A DNA stretch of 64,000 nucleotides from positions 1,674,001-1,738,000 of the forward strand of contig NZ_CP044285.1 in the NCBI RefSeq assembly GCF_008728635.1, given 5' to 3'. A model generated the notes under the pieces. The model searched no databases. It saw only the letters and a program-made list of their open reading frames with translations, and was not told the DNA's origin. Positions 45,208 through 54,949 of this stretch are shown in pieces. The stretch is from Hymenobacter baengnokdamensis (GTDB lineage: Bacteria; Bacteroidota; Bacteroidia; Cytophagales; Hymenobacteraceae). Both the position numbers and the translations under genes were made by a program. Within the stretch, counting starts at the first letter, position 1. Every line of letters begins with the position of its first letter.

Positions 45208-45629
45208 TGCCGATTAACTACAAAAACTACCCCCCCAACTGGCTCACCGAAATCCGGCCGCGCATCCTGGCCCGCGATGGCCACCGGTGCAAATTCTGCC
45301 AGGTACCGGATGGAGCCGATATCCAGCGCAGCAGCCGCGGCCACTACATGCTGCCCAGTGGCGAGGCCTTCGACGGCACCACTGGGCAACTGCTGGCCGA
45401 TGAGGCCGACTACTGGCCCCCGGAGCGGCAGGTGCGCATCGTGCTCACCATTGCCCACCTCGACCACGCCCTGGTTGACCACGCCGACGACAACCTGGCT
45501 GCCCTCTGCCAGCAGTGCCACCTCCGCTACGATAAGCGCGTGGTGGCTCCCAAAGCAGCCTACACCCGCAAGTATGGCCGCGCGACTACTCCCATTGATT
45601 TTCTGCCTTCCGCGCCGTGTCCGACCTAA
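45207..45629 (+). CDS. HNH endonuclease
   Basis: The 140-residue protein starts at ATG 45207, sharing its first base with the stop of the recombinase gene. The zinc-binding CKFCQ and CQQCH pairs frame the HNH core IAHLDHALVDHADDNLAALCQQCHLRYD: His of AHLDH, Asn of DDNL, His of CHLRYD. It should make nicks or double-strand cuts in DNA. In phages such small HNH proteins assist packaging or act as homing or host-DNA nucleases. It is between the recombinase and the primase-helicase, overlapping the latter by 13 bases. Confidence 0.88.
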   Translation: MPINYKNYPPNWLTEIRPRILARDGHRCKFCQVPDGADIQRSSRGHYMLPSGEAFDGTTGQLLADEADYWPPERQVRIVLTIAHLDHALVDHADDNLAALCQQCHLRYDKRVVAPKAAYTRKYGRATTPIDFLPSAPCPT

Positions 45630-48118
45630 CTCCACCCACCGAATCAACGCCTGGCCCGTCCTGTGCCTGGCCTGAGCCCTACGCCGATAAGCGCTGCCGG
45701 CTGGCTGGCATCCCCGACGAAATATGCCTGTTTCGGGCCCCGCACCCGCGTTCGCCCGACTCGCATATAAAGGCCCAGTGGTCGGTTTTTTCTTCCGATG
45801 ACGAGGATAACCTGGTTATTCTCTACCCGACCATCGGCGGCGACGTGCTCACCTTCGACAACGGCACGAAGAACAACCCTGACAGCATTTTCGAGCGCAA
45901 GCGCCTGAAGGAGCCCCGCACCTACGTCGATAAGGAGGGCAACTCCCAGACGATGAAGTACGAGCAGCCCAAGGGCACGCGGCAATTTCCGTTTTTCATG
46001 CCCGGCCTCGTGGCCAAGTACAAGGCCGGCACCAAAATCCCGACCTTGTACCTGGTAGAGGGTGAGCTGAAGGCGGCGGCCGGCGTAGCTCGTGGCCTCG
46101 ACATCGTGGGGATGCCCAGCAACCAGGTGGTGCGCCAGCAGGTGGGGGCCAACTGGCAATTGGAGAGCCAGCTGCAAGCCCTCATCCGCAAGTGCGAGGT
46201 GGAAACGCTGGTGCTGCTGCACGACGCCGACGCCCGCACCGTGCGCTGGGAGGCCGGCAAGGACTTGGCCAAGCGGCCCAACTCCTTTGCCCAGGCCGTT
46301 ATCAACTTCCGCGAAGCCATTCAGTCGCTGCTCGACGACGAGGCCTGTGCGCTGAAGCGAGCCTTCTACCTGCACGGACGGCGCGAAATGTGCGACAAAA
46401 ACGCTAAGGGCTTGGATGATATGTTCATGGCCTTTCCCGAAGAGCAGGAGGCTATCTTGGCCGACCTGGCCAAGGGCACCGAGGCCAACAAGTACTTTGA
46501 GGGCAAGAATGTGACCACACCGCACTACGACAACGTGCGTAGCTACTTCGCGGTGAATAATAAGGCCAAAGACCCTGAGAAGGACTTTTACCTGCTCTAC
46601 CGCAAAGACATCGGCATCCGGGAGTTTTCATTTCGGGGCCGACGCTACGTGCCCGACGGTGAGGACGTCATCTACCTGGCCCACCAGGATGCCGGCGAGT
46701 TTTGCCGCATCGGGGCCGATTGGTACAAGTGGATATGGCAGCCCCGCCCCGGTGGTGAGCTAGTGCGCGAGTTGGTGCCCTGGAAGGTGGGGGAGATTTC
46801 GCGGGAGTACAAGAATTACCCTGCTTTCCTCGACGAGTGCCCTAAGTTCGACGGCTTCACGGTGGAGCCTAATTTCAACGGCGAATACCAGCGCGTGATT
46901 GCCAAGAACCTGAACCTGATACAGCCGCTGGGCCACGAGGTAGTGAGCGGTTCCATCAAGCATACGTTGGCGTTTCTCAAGCACATTTTCACCGGCACCG
47001 GCACGCTCGTCGAAACTGAGACGCTGAAGAACGGTAAGCCTCAATATGGCACGGAGGAAAAGCCCGTGACGGCCGACCCCTTTACCATTGCGCTCGACTG
47101 GCTTACGGTGCTGCATAACTATCCCAAGCACCAACTGCCCGTCATTATTCTGGTATCGAAGGATAACAAGACCGGCAAAACCACCTTCCTGAACTGGCTG
47201 ACGTGGATTTATGGCTCGAATGCCACCATCCTCAACAACGACCAGTTTGCGATGAAATTCAACTCGCACTATGCTACCAAGTTCGTGATTGGCCTCGACG
47301 AGGCGTTTCAGGATTTGGAAAAGAAAGCGGAAAAGGAGCGCCTCAAGCAGATGGTGACGGCCAAGGAGATGTACGTGGAGCGCAAAGGCGTGGACCTCAA
47401 AGCAGTGCCGTTCTACGGCAAAATCGTCATGACGAGCAACGAGGAGGATAAGGTGATGAAGCTCGACGACAACGATACCCGCTGGTTTGTGGTGAAGGTG
47501 CCGGTGTTTGCGAAGGAAGACCCGGATATGGAGAAGAAGCTGCGCGCTGAGATTCCGGCCTGGCTTCACTTCCTGCACCAGCGCCAGGTGCACCACCCCC
47601 GTGAGAGCCGGCTGTGGTTTAAGCCCGAGGACTTCATCACCGAGCAATTCCGCATCATTGTGAAGGCCACCAAGAACCGCCTCGACCACAACATCGAGGA
47701 ATTCATTAAGGATATGTTCCTGACGTATCGGCTCGGGAAAATCCGCATGAGCGTGAAATGGCTGGTGAAGGCCATCAACGAGACGAGCAAGTACCGCGTG
47801 GATGAGAAGGACGTGCGCGAGTATTTCAAGAATAAGCGGGGGCTGGAGCCCAACCCGAGCCAGCGCATTAAAATCCCGACCAGCGTGAACTACGAGATGC
47901 TGAACGGGCAGGGCTTTCCCGATACGGCCGGCATGACCTTCCACGAGGAGCAGGCCCGCTACTATGAGCTGCTGGTGCATGACTGGCTGAGTGAGCAGGA
48001 GCTGGCTGCCTTCGAGGCCCCCTACGTGTCTGACAACTGGTTGCCGACCTCACCGGCTCAAGTCGCCGCGCCGCCAGCCGTTCCCGGCGTGAAGTTCGGC
48101 AGCGGGTGGGGGAGATAG
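45617..48118 (+). CDS. Phage primase-helicase (D5-type, Toprim plus SF3 helicase)
   Basis: The 833-residue protein starts at GTG 45617. The N-terminal third has a Toprim-like fold (DUF3854 type): LYLVEGELKAAAG near 147 and TLVLLHDADAR near 200. The SF3/D5 helicase core has Walker A SKDNKTGKTTFLNW near 518, Walker B FVIGLDEAF near 558 and a sensor IVMTSNEEDKVM near 610. The C-terminus carries a winged-helix-like part. It should unwind and prime phage DNA, so this region is the replication module. The TGTTTCA-rich non-coding region directly follows and is a natural candidate for its origin. A terminator closes the gene. Confidence 0.88.
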   Translation: MSDLTPPTESTPGPSCAWPEPYADKRCRLAGIPDEICLFRAPHPRSPDSHIKAQWSVFSSDDEDNLVILYPTIGGDVLTFDNGTKNNPDSIFERKRLKEPRTYVDKEGNSQTMKYEQPKGTRQFPFFMPGLVAKYKAGTKIPTLYLVEGELKAAAGVARGLDIVGMPSNQVVRQQVGANWQLESQLQALIRKCEVETLVLLHDADARTVRWEAGKDLAKRPNSFAQAVINFREAIQSLLDDEACALKRAFYLHGRREMCDKNAKGLDDMFMAFPEEQEAILADLAKGTEANKYFEGKNVTTPHYDNVRSYFAVNNKAKDPEKDFYLLYRKDIGIREFSFRGRRYVPDGEDVIYLAHQDAGEFCRIGADWYKWIWQPRPGGELVRELVPWKVGEISREYKNYPAFLDECPKFDGFTVEPNFNGEYQRVIAKNLNLIQPLGHEVVSGSIKHTLAFLKHIFTGTGTLVETETLKNGKPQYGTEEKPVTADPFTIALDWLTVLHNYPKHQLPVIILVSKDNKTGKTTFLNWLTWIYGSNATILNNDQFAMKFNSHYATKFVIGLDEAFQDLEKKAEKERLKQMVTAKEMYVERKGVDLKAVPFYGKIVMTSNEEDKVMKLDDNDTRWFVVKVPVFAKEDPDMEKKLRAEIPAWLHFLHQRQVHHPRESRLWFKPEDFITEQFRIIVKATKNRLDHNIEEFIKDMFLTYRLGKIRMSVKWLVKAINETSKYRVDEKDVREYFKNKRGLEPNPSQRIKIPTSVNYEMLNGQGFPDTAGMTFHEEQARYYELLVHDWLSEQELAAFEAPYVSDNWLPTSPAQVAAPPAVPGVKFGSGWGR

Positions 48119-48135
48119 TTGGCATGCATAACAAA

Positions 48136-48429
48136 TGAAACAGGGGCCTCCGGGCCCCTTTTTTTGGGCCATAAAGGGAGCTTTTGCCGATTTCTTGAAA
48201 AACACTGTTTCTTTTGTTTCAATTGTTTCAAAGTATAAAAAATAGCTCTAGAATGCTGTAGAGGCACTTTTTCACGCCTGTCCGTCTGAAACAAAAAAAA
48301 AGGCCGTGTTTCAAATGTGGTTTTCTGAAACAAACGAAACGCGCGAAACAAGGGGTTTGTTTCAGAATGTTTCAGGGTTATTATATTGATTTACAGTGGT
48401 TGTAAAAGTCAATAGTCGTGTTTGAAACA
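48136..48429. other. TGTTTCA heptamer array, candidate replication origin or control region
   Basis: Nine exact copies of TGTTTCA or its complement TGAAACA start at 48136, 48215, 48224, 48287, 48307, 48326, 48358, 48368 and 48423. Near-copies lie at 48206, 48335 and 48344. The tract is A/T-rich between GC-rich genes and contains no gene. By chance a 7-mer should be found on either strand about 0.04 times in 300 bases. Two further copies lie in the 26-bp repeats at 49059 and 49130. Iteron-like arrays beside a replication gene commonly bind an initiator. Confidence 0.65.
48141..48165 (+). terminator. Terminator after the primase-helicase gene
   Basis: GGGGCC (48143-48148) pairs with GGCCCC (48153-48158), followed by a run of seven T. 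It ends the early operon. Confidence 0.8.
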
Positions 48430-48542
48430 AAAACAACACACTTTTTGAATTTCAGTGAAAAACGAGGAGTTTTAGCCACTGGTGTGAATGTTTGGTGAGT
48501 GGCGCGCGCCGGCTGGTAATTTGCCTTTTTGGGGTGTGCTGT

Positions 48543-48577
48543 GTCCTTGATGCGCTGTCGGGGGTATGCTACCTTCA
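48543..48577 (+). promoter_or_regulatory. Phage promoter of the TGTCCTT family, copy 1
   Basis: GTCC then TTGA at 48547 (-33) and, after exactly 19 bases, TACCTTCA (48570-48577, -7 box). ATG 48602 follows 24 bases later. Spacing equals TTTG-N19-TAnnTTTG, and the TGTCCTT core is shared with the promoters at 51283, 54551 and 59783. Confidence 0.55.
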
Positions 48578-48601
48578 AGTACCCATTCTGGCCACCCCTT
48601 T

Positions 48602-49108
48602 ATGCTGCGCACCTTTACTGTTCCAGTTAAGCCCCACGTTCAGAAATACCTGCTGCACCACCTGGGGCCAGCCTATAAGCTGAGCCAGCTGGACCCTATC
48701 GGGCGCATCTTGCGGTTGCGGCTTCAAGCGCCCCGCACCAACGCATATCTAGACGGGTTTACCGGCCGCTACACGGCTGAGTTTAGCGTGTCTATTGAGG
48801 GTAACCTGCTGTTTCAGAGGCGATTTAAAGCACTTCGATCCACCGATATTATTGATTTTAATAATGACGTAGAGGCCATTATTAAAACCGAGTTTTACGG
48901 CATGGTGGCCCACCGACGCGACTTTGGCCTGAGCCAGTATGGGGCGATTCAGCAGTTCCGAGCCAAGTATAATTTCCTCGACGAGGACATTACCCACGAC
49001 GCGCTGAAAAAAGCCTGGCAACGCTACTGCGCAGACCAGCTAGCGCCGGAAAATGTGCAAAATCGTGTTTCAGTTTGTCCCCTACCTGGCCAGCGTCTGG
49101 CGGCCTGA
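48602..49108 (+). CDS. Hypothetical phage protein next to the heptamer array
   Basis: The protein has 168 residues from ATG 48602. The in-frame ATG at 48566 is excluded if the promoter at 48543-48577 is real. The N-terminus MLRTFTVPVKPHVQKYLLHHLGP is typical of a small conserved family in Bacteroidota phages, and the C-terminal helices GAIQQFRAKYNFLDEDITHDALKKAWQRY look DNA-binding. It could be an initiator or regulator recognising the TGTTTCA repeats that lie on both sides of its gene: the upstream array, and one 26-bp repeat inside its own 3' end. This is inference from position only. Confidence 0.6.
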   Translation: MLRTFTVPVKPHVQKYLLHHLGPAYKLSQLDPIGRILRLRLQAPRTNAYLDGFTGRYTAEFSVSIEGNLLFQRRFKALRSTDIIDFNNDVEAIIKTEFYGMVAHRRDFGLSQYGAIQQFRAKYNFLDEDITHDALKKAWQRYCADQLAPENVQNRVSVCPLPGQRLAA

Positions 49109-49155
49109 AAAAAAACAGGCTTTTTTGGTAAAATCGTGTTTCAGTTTGTCCCCTA
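49059..49155. repeat. Pair of perfect 26-bp direct repeats, each with a TGTTTCA core
   Basis: AAAATCGTGTTTCAGTTTGT followed by CCCCTA occurs at 49059-49084 and 49130-49155, 71 bases apart. The first copy codes for the end of the preceding gene; the second lies 13 bases before the next gene's ATG. Confidence 0.8.
49103..49127 (+). terminator. Small terminator between the 26-bp repeats
   Basis: GCCTG and CAGGC pair around an A-rich loop and are followed by TTTTTT. Confidence 0.6.
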
Positions 49156-49837: not shown

Positions 49838-51231
49838 TGACTCAGCTCAGCCCCACCGCCCTAGTGGCGAAATACAACGCGCCCGTGGTGGGCGTATTTG
49901 CGGACAACAACTTTGCGAAAACGGAAGAAAGCGATTTTCGCGGCCTGGTCACCGATTTTACTGATTCGTTTGCGCCGATGTCGTTGGTCGCGCCGGCCAA
50001 TGTGCGAACTTGGACGGCTAGTATTCAAGATTGGGCGCTGGGCGAGTTGATGAAAATCATCTTCGACGATGAGTATTATTTTTTCATCGCCGGTGTAGCG
50101 GGTGGCCCGTTCCCCGCTCCCGCTGGCGCCAGCGACAATGATACTCCGCCCTGGGTGCCGGCGGCCCCACCTACTTCGCCCGTTGCGTTGTATGGCACTT
50201 ACCTGCTGAGTTTTGTGCAGCGGTACCTGCTTGATGCCAATGGGTATGCGACAGCCGGCATCACGGCCGGGCGGCTCTACGGCATCCCTGGGGCCTGGAA
50301 CGGGGGTGCAGCCGACCAGGTAGTGTACGTGCGTGGGCTGGCCGGCGGGCGCTTTGACGTGGCCGGCACGCTGTGCAGTAGCGGCGCGCTTACGCCGGTC
50401 GCGGTGGATGCCCTGGCTGGTACGGCCACCGCCACCGCCACCACGAGCCTGCTCAGCGGCTATCTGGAAGTCAGCGCGGATAATGGCCTGCGCATTCGCG
50501 AAATTCCGGTACTGCCTGGCTTCACCATCCTGGATGAGGTATTGGACAAGAATGTCTCAGCTGTGCGCTACCAGCTCGATACCCATACGAGGGTAGGCAG
50601 CCGCCAGTATGGCACCGGCGGCCAGACGCTGGCCCAGGTAATGGTACTGCTGGCTGCCCTCACCCCGGCCGACTTTGCGAGCGGGGTGAAGCTCTATATC
50701 CAAACCATTCCGGTCAGCCAGCCGGATGCGTCGCTCATTGGCATTGAGTATAGTAGTACGCGCATCATCTCGCCGGCCCCGGCGAAACTGCCGACGTTCC
50801 CGGTTGACCCCGGCGCTCCGCAGTCCCTCACCATCAACGGCAAGTTTCTCGACCCCTTCACCAGTGACGAAACCACTGGCTGGCGAAGCAGCGGCGGCTG
50901 GTACTGGGATGGCGTAGACCTACTGGCTATTTCACCGGCAGGCGCAAACGCCGGCAGCGGCAATGGCCTGTTCTTATATCAGATAGTGGCCGGCTTTGTC
51001 ACCAGCGCGGCCTACACCGCCGTTATCGTGGTGCAGGACTTGCCGGATGGCACTGCCGTTAGCGGCACGTTATTTCTGTCAGTGGATGGCAACCCACATG
51101 CCATACCAGCTGCACCGGGAGAGTACCATATCAATTTCGTGGCCTCCAATCCGCAGATGGGCATTAGCCTCAACCCGCAGGGGGGCGCTTTTACGGGTGC
51201 AGTGAAGCAATTCGACATCTTCCGCGTCTGA
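49837..51231 (+). CDS. Putative tail fibre / receptor-binding protein
   Basis: The 464-residue protein has an N-terminal mixed domain (about 1-330) with GLVTDFTDSFAPMSLVAPANV and many Ala/Gly/Thr-rich strands. The C-terminal jelly-roll-like domain (about 335-464) reads NGKFLDPFTSDETTGWRSSGGWYWDG, AAYTAVIVVQDLPDG and GEYHINFVASNPQMGISL, a pattern of carbohydrate-binding or tail-tip domains in which a short N-terminal strand 'NG.F......W....W' opens the fold. Host recognition is inferred. A terminator and then the head-gene promoter follow. Confidence 0.55.
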   Translation: MTQLSPTALVAKYNAPVVGVFADNNFAKTEESDFRGLVTDFTDSFAPMSLVAPANVRTWTASIQDWALGELMKIIFDDEYYFFIAGVAGGPFPAPAGASDNDTPPWVPAAPPTSPVALYGTYLLSFVQRYLLDANGYATAGITAGRLYGIPGAWNGGAADQVVYVRGLAGGRFDVAGTLCSSGALTPVAVDALAGTATATATTSLLSGYLEVSADNGLRIREIPVLPGFTILDEVLDKNVSAVRYQLDTHTRVGSRQYGTGGQTLAQVMVLLAALTPADFASGVKLYIQTIPVSQPDASLIGIEYSSTRIISPAPAKLPTFPVDPGAPQSLTINGKFLDPFTSDETTGWRSSGGWYWDGVDLLAISPAGANAGSGNGLFLYQIVAGFVTSAAYTAVIVVQDLPDGTAVSGTLFLSVDGNPHAIPAAPGEYHINFVASNPQMGISLNPQGGAFTGAVKQFDIFRV

Positions 51232-51237
51232 AACCAG

Positions 51238-51291
51238 GGACATTCGTGAAAGGCCTCGCTCTACCAGGCGGGGCTTTTTCGTGTCCTTTTT
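51238..51291 (+). terminator. Terminator after the fibre-like gene
   Basis: AAAGGCCTCGC pairs with GCGGGGCTTTTT (one mismatch and one wobble), extended outward by GGACA/TGTCC. The T-run doubles as the -33 region of the promoter that follows. Confidence 0.65.
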
Positions 51292-51317
51292 CTGCGTTTT
51301 CAAGCCCGCCACCTTTG
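51283..51317 (+). promoter_or_regulatory. Phage promoter of the TGTCCTT family, copy 2
   Basis: GTCC-TTTT (51287) -N19- CACCTTTG (51310-51317). The start codon GTG 51339 lies 21 bases downstream. The 30-base stretch 51268-51297 recurs with one mismatch at 54535-54564. Confidence 0.65.
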
Positions 51318-53902: not shown

Positions 53903-54487
53903 GTGGATACGCAAGATTTAACCCACACGTCGGGCACCGATAACACGCCCGGCATTCAGCAGAAGATTTTCTACACGACGCTGGAGAACATCGTAACCCT
54001 GCCTAAGCCTACCGAGGACGATTCGGCCGCCTCTACTGGCACGTTTGCCGACCTGGTAACGATTACGGCCGACATCGTGGTAAAGAAGCCGCTCAGCAGC
54101 ATCTACGTGACGCTGGAGGATGGCGAGCTGAAGCACAGCGGCCAGGGTGAAACGGACTCGATGTCGTTTAAAAACGAGCTGGAGTTTGCCCACCCCGGCA
54201 CCAAGCCCGAGCAGCTGGGCTTTGCCCAGTGGTGCAAAAACAGCAACCTCATTTTCCTAGTGCCCGAAGTGGACGGCCAAATCCGCGTGCTGGGCACCCG
54301 TGGCTACCCCGCCAAGCTGGCCACCGCGCCCGGTTCGACGGGTAAGAAATCGACGGACGGCCGCAAAACCACCTTCACGTTCCACTCCAGCCGCAAGGGC
54401 CCCGCGCCCGTGTTTACCGGCAAGGTCATGGTAGCTGCTGATGGCGGCGGCGACCCTACTGAGCAGGACCTGGGCCTGGAAGACTAA
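53903..54487 (+). CDS. Probable tail-tube or head-decoration protein
   Basis: The 194-residue protein starts at GTG 53903. The sequence is beta-rich and acidic, with IFYTTLENIVTLPKPTEDDSAASTGTFADLVTITADIVVKK and SSIYVTLEDGELKHSGQGETDSMSFKNELEFAHPG. It contains the 'GK..TDGRKTTFTF' ending seen in tube-like phage proteins. It is expressed from its own A/T-rich leader between two terminators, which points to a protein made in large amounts. Tail-tube is my first choice; a capsid decoration protein is the alternative. Confidence 0.55.
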   Translation: MDTQDLTHTSGTDNTPGIQQKIFYTTLENIVTLPKPTEDDSAASTGTFADLVTITADIVVKKPLSSIYVTLEDGELKHSGQGETDSMSFKNELEFAHPGTKPEQLGFAQWCKNSNLIFLVPEVDGQIRVLGTRGYPAKLATAPGSTGKKSTDGRKTTFTFHSSRKGPAPVFTGKVMVAADGGGDPTEQDLGLED

Positions 54488-54506
54488 AAAAGAAGCTTTA
54501 CGAAGA

Positions 54507-54561
54507 AAGGACACGAAAAACCCCGCTAGCTTCTGGCGGGGCTTTTTCGTGTCCTTTTTTT
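54507..54561 (+). terminator. Long terminator after the tube-like gene
   Basis: A stem of about 21 bases (AAAGGACACGAAAAACCCCGC with GCGGGGCTTTTTCGTGTCCT, one bulge) ends in seven T. The distal arm contains the -33 half of the promoter at 54551. Confidence 0.8.
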
Positions 54562-54585
54562 GCGAATTGCCGGCGGAGAGCTTTG
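54551..54585 (+). promoter_or_regulatory. Phage promoter of the TGTCCTT family, copy 3
   Basis: GTCC-TTTT (54555) -N19- GAGCTTTG (54578-54585); ATG 54614 follows 28 bases later. Same offsets as the copies at 48543, 51283 and 59783. Confidence 0.65.
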
Positions 54586-54613
54586 TAGAGAACCTTTCTC
54601 TAGCCTCTCTCAA

Positions 54614-54949
54614 ATGCCCAAACTGACCCAAGAGCTGCGCGCTGGTCTAACCGCGCTCGCGGCCGAATTGCCGGCCCAAACCTACCTAATCGGTGAAGTT
54701 GTAAGCGGGCAGCAGCTGCTCGACGAGAACCCCGGCAAAACCAAGCTCACCGGCGGCGGCGAAGTGGACCCCAAGCAGACGTATAAGCGCCTAGGCAATC
54801 CGCACCCGGTCAACCACGCGCGCCGGCTGCTGCGCGCCTTTGAGCGCGCCGGCCGCGCCGGCGTGCTGGCCTACTGCAAGCCCCACATCGAGCCGGCAAA
54901 CTTCGGCCTATTCTCTACCAAGCTGAGCGAGCTGGTGCCGGCCAAGTGA
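54614..54949 (+). CDS. Hypothetical phage protein, 111 residues
   Basis: Starts at ATG 54614; an in-frame ATG at 54560 lies inside the promoter and terminator and is rejected. The protein is basic and soluble (LTQELRAGLTALAAELPAQTYL..., NHARRLLRAFERAGRAGVLAYCKPHIEP). No family recognised. It is the first gene of a block of small genes that leads to the terminase, and its GTGA end overlaps the next start. Confidence 0.6.
   Translation: MPKLTQELRAGLTALAAELPAQTYLIGEVVSGQQLLDENPGKTKLTGGGEVDPKQTYKRLGNPHPVNHARRLLRAFERAGRAGVLAYCKPHIEPANFGLFSTKLSELVPAK

Follow-up and report, generated by a model that had tools for sequence, protein, structure and literature searches.

What is the role of nine copies of a single heptamer, TGTTTCA, clustered behind the primase-helicase gene of a prophage? 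The cluster lies in a 64,000-nucleotide stretch of the Hymenobacter baengnokdamensis genome (contig NZ_CP044285.1, positions 1,674,001 to 1,738,000), hereafter the window, where it separates the primase-helicase gene (45617-48118) from a small open reading frame (ORF; 48566-49108). The initial annotation had proposed either an iteron-type origin or the operator array of a regulator. Comparative evidence favors the origin, as most relatives carry a clustered heptamer of their own at the same place. We consider it very likely that the array serves a Hymenobacter prophage as its iteron origin of replication, with the primase-helicase encoded upstream as its initiator, which places a candidate replication origin in this element. 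The best reading is an iteron origin recognized by the initiator helicase of the same element, a kind seen in staphylococcal pathogenicity islands (SaPIs), Gram-negative phage-inducible chromosomal islands (PICIs) and the staphylococcal cassette chromosome SCCmec.

A dense heptamer array

Recounting confirmed the nine exact TGTTTCA/TGAAACA copies, on both strands, previously reported for 48136-48429: 48136(-), 48215(+), 48224(+), 48287(-), 48307(+), 48326(-), 48358(+), 48368(+) and 48423(-). The near-copies said to accompany them were also present, six with one mismatch (48196, 48206, 48268, 48344, 48419 and 48456), which widen the array to 48196-48462. This is the densest 7-mer cluster in the window, where no second TGTTTCA cluster occurs. 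Overall, 15 TGTTTCA copies occur in the window, whereas 100 dinucleotide-preserving shuffles averaged 4.57 and never exceeded 12; three further copies lie 0.4-0.7 kb from the array, in or just past the small gene. In the random-sequence control suggested earlier, the best 7-mer of the 900-bp helicase 3' flank reached 9 copies per 350 bp, versus a maximum of 4 for any 7-mer in 200 shuffles. Shuffles and the window-wide density ranking together rule out chance or low complexity as the source of the array. Across the host genome, TGTTTCA tandem pairs with a gap of at most 20 bases were found only in the array (two matches; none for the reversed-pattern control).

The copies are arranged in three repeat blocks with two A/T-rich stretches, rather than as one clear pair (Table 1). 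Copies 48358 and 48368 of the central block are spaced by one turn, and positions 48422-48449 constitute a 28-nt inverted repeat of 48195-48222 with 79% complementarity. Visual inspection of printed flanking sequence showed hairpins similar to the terminator-like one after the helicase gene in relatives L026, L027, L030 and L031 and in the Vibrio vulnificus plasmid pMP1. A known RNA element was rejected as an explanation, the single match scoring 20.1 bits against a cut-off of 50.

Arrays in relatives and on plasmids

Loci encoding related helicases came from genome searches, each giving at most 30 loci; from scans of viral contigs, where the best 80 of 207 were taken, and of genome contigs, with the best 80 of 239; and from six plasmid records. 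Loci L001-L025 (shorter copies) and L041, L049, L060, L061 and L081 (duplicate places) were excluded before counting. Of 227 loci, 222 contained the helicase and 201 were non-identical, five being removed for want of a helicase match and 21 for identical last 300 residues. Scans of the loci with the single protein gave no matches; alignment scans did. Helicase relatives were present in 13 of 200 family genomes, the window genome included.

Read strictly, the refuting outcome named in the initial annotation, relatives with the helicase and no TGTTTCA cluster, was what all 15 regions showed: each had at most two copies per 300 bp, and TGTTTCA was rejected as a conserved family motif. Instead, most of the 15 regions had another dense heptamer in the same place beside the helicase, namely TGTTACA (L026-L028), TTCTCAC (L030), TCTTACT (L031), TGATGAG (L032-L036) or TGTCTAG (L040). 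No heptamer as dense was found in L029 and L039, which have partial helicase matches only. A different clustered heptamer at the same place agrees with an iteron evolving in step with the protein that reads it. Inspection of 19 loci for TGTTTCA revealed at most four copies in 300 bp, and close TGTTTCA tandem pairs occurred in 93 of 204 family genomes, with the reversed-pattern control also matching many genomes. Separately, loci L262, L263 and L264, from other genomes of the genus, have, near position 1500, four TGTTTCA in a compact palindromic layout (two TGAAACA, then two TGTTTCA, ~52 bp) with an operator-like look; one genome, G193, has this layout at two places.

Enrichment for a clustered heptamer, defined as no more than 5 of 100 shuffles being as good, was seen in 138 of 195 helicase 3' flanks (900 bp), and 115 beat all 100 shuffles; because many loci are related to each other, these counts are not independent cases. 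By comparison, 5' flanks were enriched in 10 of 192 cases (five beating all shuffles) and control flanks, taken 3' of other long ORFs from these loci, in 9 of 167 (three beating all shuffles). Enrichment of 3' flanks by helicase profile score was 100/120 at 300 or above, 18/29 at 250-300, 11/16 at 200-250 and 9/30 below 200. Spacing was also shared. Among 58 representatives with less than 70% identity, 143 of 215 same-strand neighbor gaps measured 8-12 bp, and 52 representatives had at least one such pair; opposite-strand neighbors were more scattered, with 24 of 134 gaps measuring 16-22 bp. Heptamer words differ among relatives and the build, same-strand repeats 8-12 bp apart, is common. The window partly matches this turn-length spacing (48206-48215-48224 and 48358-48368).

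The helicase also occurs on circular records, including Phocaeicola and Bacteroides plasmids (15-30 kb), pBUN1, pMP1 (7.6 kb) and pMNOD07. Plasmid arrays L092-L095 beat all 200 shuffles. In pMP1, where five of seven annotated coding sequences were scanned and the helicase alone matched a Pfam family, the array 3' of the helicase gene holds 8 of the 10 TGGAAAA copies present on the entire plasmid. This concentration bears on the idea that the helicase binds the heptamers at a copy-control or secondary replication site, the true start being elsewhere. Such a site would suit an array at the end of the replication module with extra TGTTTCA copies 0.4-0.7 kb away, and phage P4, which has more than one cis site, provides a parallel. 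The pMP1 distribution and the lack of another TGTTTCA cluster in the window argue against it, and we regard it as unlikely. As a separate observation, pBUN1 (L094, 7938-13173) carries the helicase, array, a toprim gene and a mobV relaxase beside the annotated beta-lactamase gene blaMUN-1.

Several results count against an origin at this array. GC skew, a check proposed in the initial annotation, gave no clear origin signal. Distant DUF5906 relatives scoring below 200 mostly lack an array, and 57 of the 195 relatives were not enriched in the tested 900 bp. When 22 of these 57 were rescanned along the locus, 15 had no comparable 3' cluster; six (L028, L101, L112, L116, L181 and L187) had a more distant 3' cluster (5-11 copies, 0.9-3.6 kb farther out), and in L245 the cluster straddled the stop codon (no shuffle control for these rescans). 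Among the six plasmids, the L091 array is weak (8 of 200 shuffles as good) and pMNOD07 (L096) has none. Locus L108 departs from the usual 3' arrays with 18 AGCATCA copies in ~350 bp, located ~3.5 kb 5' of the helicase stop.

The helicase C-terminus and heptamer sequence

The window protein has a superfamily-3 (SF3)/D5-type helicase with motor motifs, fused to a Toprim/DnaG-type primase as in P4 alpha, and short repeats lie directly 3' of its gene. Its model is nearest to NrS-1 polymerase and the SaPI5 primase-helicase. A winged-helix DNA-binding domain is predicted at the C-terminus, with modeled helices at residues 688-704, 713-723 and 730-740 followed by strands at 749-757 and 773-780.

Motif analysis of the 138 array loci linked this domain to the repeat. 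Loci with a profile score of at least 270 and a TGATGA, TGATGC or TGTTGA consensus were labeled (n=94; 64 TGATGA/TGATGC and 30 TGTTGA), TGATGC loci (L050, L052, L053, L054 and L166) being pooled with TGATGA. Setting aside L053 and L207, with truncated helicase ORFs, left 92 loci; the L168 residue was assigned by hand from sequence because the search expression picked the preceding Asn. In all 63 TGATG(A/C) loci the residue after a conserved winged-helix Asn was Ser (44) or Thr (19); 27 of 29 TGTTGA loci had Gly (22) or Ala (5) there, the exceptions L037 and L044 having Ser. On a helicase-core tree built without the C-terminus, 11 changes are counted for the motif base and 11 for the residue class, and 5 or 6 of six independent pairs on supported branches agree with none opposed. 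This column misclassified 3 of 92 loci (2 if the residue is read by sequence context) versus 11 for the next best, and the ten best of 393 columns by misclassification all fall in the C-terminal part (98 columns). Within a close group of 36 helicases, four columns separate the motifs perfectly, all C-terminal. In L146 the link residue, 365, follows the modeled recognition helix (346-356) and precedes the strand at 367-373; L147 and L146, at 95.7% identity over the aligned part, are the closest natural pair with intact ORFs.

Not all measures single out this residue. The independent pairs give a weak sign test (median p 0.031, up to 0.0625). Ranked by raw mutual information, the column is 22nd; three leave-cluster-out runs place it 3rd, 2nd and 5th of 393, level with some core columns; and it is unique solely by misclassification count. 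Motif distance correlates with the helicase core (r 0.62) no less well than with the C-terminus (0.58), partial values being 0.27 versus 0.04 (110 loci); as whole-domain distances do not favor the C-terminus, the residue-level test alone points to the winged helix. For heptamer bases 6-7, no column was as clean as for base 3 (best 7 wrong of 61). Finally, the link was measured in the TGATGA/TGTTGA branch, and the window TGTTTCA form is a single case.

We tentatively propose, as a possibility somewhat short of probable, that a single initiator-helicase family is common to prophages, integrated elements and plasmids of Bacteroidota and has a readable protein-DNA origin code, in which the residue just after the recognition helix sets one heptamer base (Ser/Thr for A, Gly/Ala for T). 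If so, heptamers would drift by paired changes, giving each element its own origin specificity and allowing several to coexist in one cell. For the window phage, we infer heptamer binding, melting and origin function as follows. The C-terminal winged helix would bind TGTTTCA heptamers, whose blocks run in both orientations and partly one helical turn apart; binding to turn-spaced repeats would gather subunits into helicase rings; an adjacent A/T-rich stretch would melt; the SF3 motor would unwind the DNA; and the fused DnaG-like primase domain would prime synthesis. A practical consequence is a rule for finding origins in many uncharacterized elements: look for the most clustered heptamer 3' of a DUF5906 helicase. 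Natural pairs one repeat base and a few winged-helix residues apart also make initiator-origin specificity and replicon incompatibility directly testable.

P4 alpha, like the window protein a Toprim/DnaG-type primase fused to an SF3 helicase, has a winged-helix origin-binding domain. It is described, in the portion of the source consulted, as combining origin recognition, unwinding and priming (PMC4234260). SaPI Rep proteins, including the SaPI5 primase-helicase to which our model is close, have an iteron origin downstream of their gene; SaPIs, however, are staphylococcal satellites, whereas the window prophage belongs to a Bacteroidota host and encodes a DnaG-like primase domain. In the pri-rep-ori module of Gram-negative PICIs, an A/T-rich region is flanked by iterons, and excerpts of the source report describe a rep-ori plasmid maintained in E. 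coli and four allelic Pri-Rep variants in E. coli (PMC6092414). These PICIs, as the same excerpts present them, are satellites (E. coli examples), in contrast to the window element, which encodes a head maturation protease (phrog_53). According to sections of a study of SCCmec, the D5-type helicase Cch2 binds a putative origin through its C-terminal domain, with direct repeats just 3' of the gene, and differs in having only three 5-nt repeats and a separately encoded primase (PMC7581432). NrS-1 polymerase is the closest solved helicase by sequence and fold, although its primase-polymerase domain is of another type than the window DnaG-like primase, and the relevant passages on its genome give two single copies of an 8-nt site and mention no array (PMC7102993).

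A different kind of origin is found in plasmid pRN1, whose ORF904 resembles the window protein in its SF3 helicase, C-terminal winged helix and origin 3' of the gene; that origin is, in the text available, a 100-bp stem-loop without iterons (PMC4234260). If the window origin were likewise structure-dependent, the hairpin potential of inverted heptamers would matter rather than binding of individual repeats. The array strand does fold better than 100 of 100 shuffles (z -3.42) and has long inverted repeats. Heptamers on both strands, however, yield inverted repeats by themselves and could explain much of the folding score, turn-length direct repeats dominate the family, and repeat sequence covaries with the protein. 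We judge a structure-dependent origin very improbable. The systems above show that iteron origins read by an initiator helicase are of a kind already known. Among the open-licence papers listed by our searches, none dealt with Bacteroidota arrays next to DUF5906 helicases, and none with the TGTTTCA heptamer, its Bacteroidota-wide array spread or the residue-base link; description elsewhere is possible.

The small gene and neighboring features

The small gene provides the candidate for a separate regulator that, in the operator reading, would bind the heptamers to control replication or late genes. Its product has no Pfam or PHROG match. Homologues (E < 0.001) were found in 12 other loci (L026, L027, L028, L031, L099, L102, L105, L110, L115, L179, L180 and L182), in all 12 of which the gene lies 3' of helicase and array. 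Heptamers on both strands, the three further TGTTTCA in or just past the small gene, and three promoter-like matches versus a shuffle mean of 0.6 (one in the array, two within the small gene or at its end) are what an operator array might show. Set against these are the terminator-like hairpin within the array, the tracking of a helicase residue by the motif base, and the presence of arrays beside the helicase in plasmids, genomes and viral contigs that yielded no small-gene homologue, an absence that is not firm as many fetched stretches are short. The operator reading has therefore lost ground, and we hold it quite unlikely; given the same distribution, the small-gene product is a less likely heptamer binder than the helicase.

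Table 1. Features of the primase-helicase and heptamer array region (window coordinates).
Feature	Position	Strand	Remarks
Primase-helicase gene, DUF5906, 833 aa	45617..48118	+	proposed initiator
N-terminal DnaG-like primase domain, residues about 17-327	45665..46597	+	structure matches 1dde, 5vaz
Superfamily-3 helicase region, residues about 353-675	46673..47641	+	motor motifs and structure comparison
C-terminal winged helix, residues about 676-790	47642..47986	+	predicted model; proposed iteron reader
Heptamer (iteron) array	48136..48429	.	nine exact copies counted
Terminator-like hairpin	48142..48159	+	after helicase gene, directly behind first iteron
Left block	48196..48230	+	TGTTTCT, TGTTTCA, TGTTTCA at 48206, 48215, 48224, 9-bp steps; minus-strand near-copy 48196
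A/T-rich stretch	48200..48259	.	72-78% in 40-bp windows; candidate melting site
Central block	48287..48374	.	exact 48287(-), 48307(+), 48326(-), 48358(+), 48368(+); near-copy 48344(-)
Second A/T-rich stretch	48360..48459	.	70-72% in 40-bp windows; candidate melting site
Right block	48419..48462	-	exact 48423(-); near-copies 48419(+), 48456(-)
Small gene, function not assigned	48566..49108	+	ORF; conserved 3' of array in some relatives
26-bp direct repeat copy 1	49059..49084	+	contains TGTTTCA; within small ORF
26-bp direct repeat copy 2	49130..49155	+	contains TGTTTCA

Two 26-bp repeats containing TGTTTCA had been placed past the small gene. Both exist; copy 1, however, falls within the 3' end of the small ORF, which contains one more TGTTTCA at 48810. 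The repeats are identical and just these two occur genome-wide at up to three mismatches. Spaced 71 bp apart, they flank a terminator-like hairpin (49102-49121) at the small-gene end. Elsewhere in the window, two unlikely minus-strand ORFs (51079-51312 and 54257-54631) have a KKDTKKPR stretch in common, which suggests a dispersed repeat in the structural-gene region.
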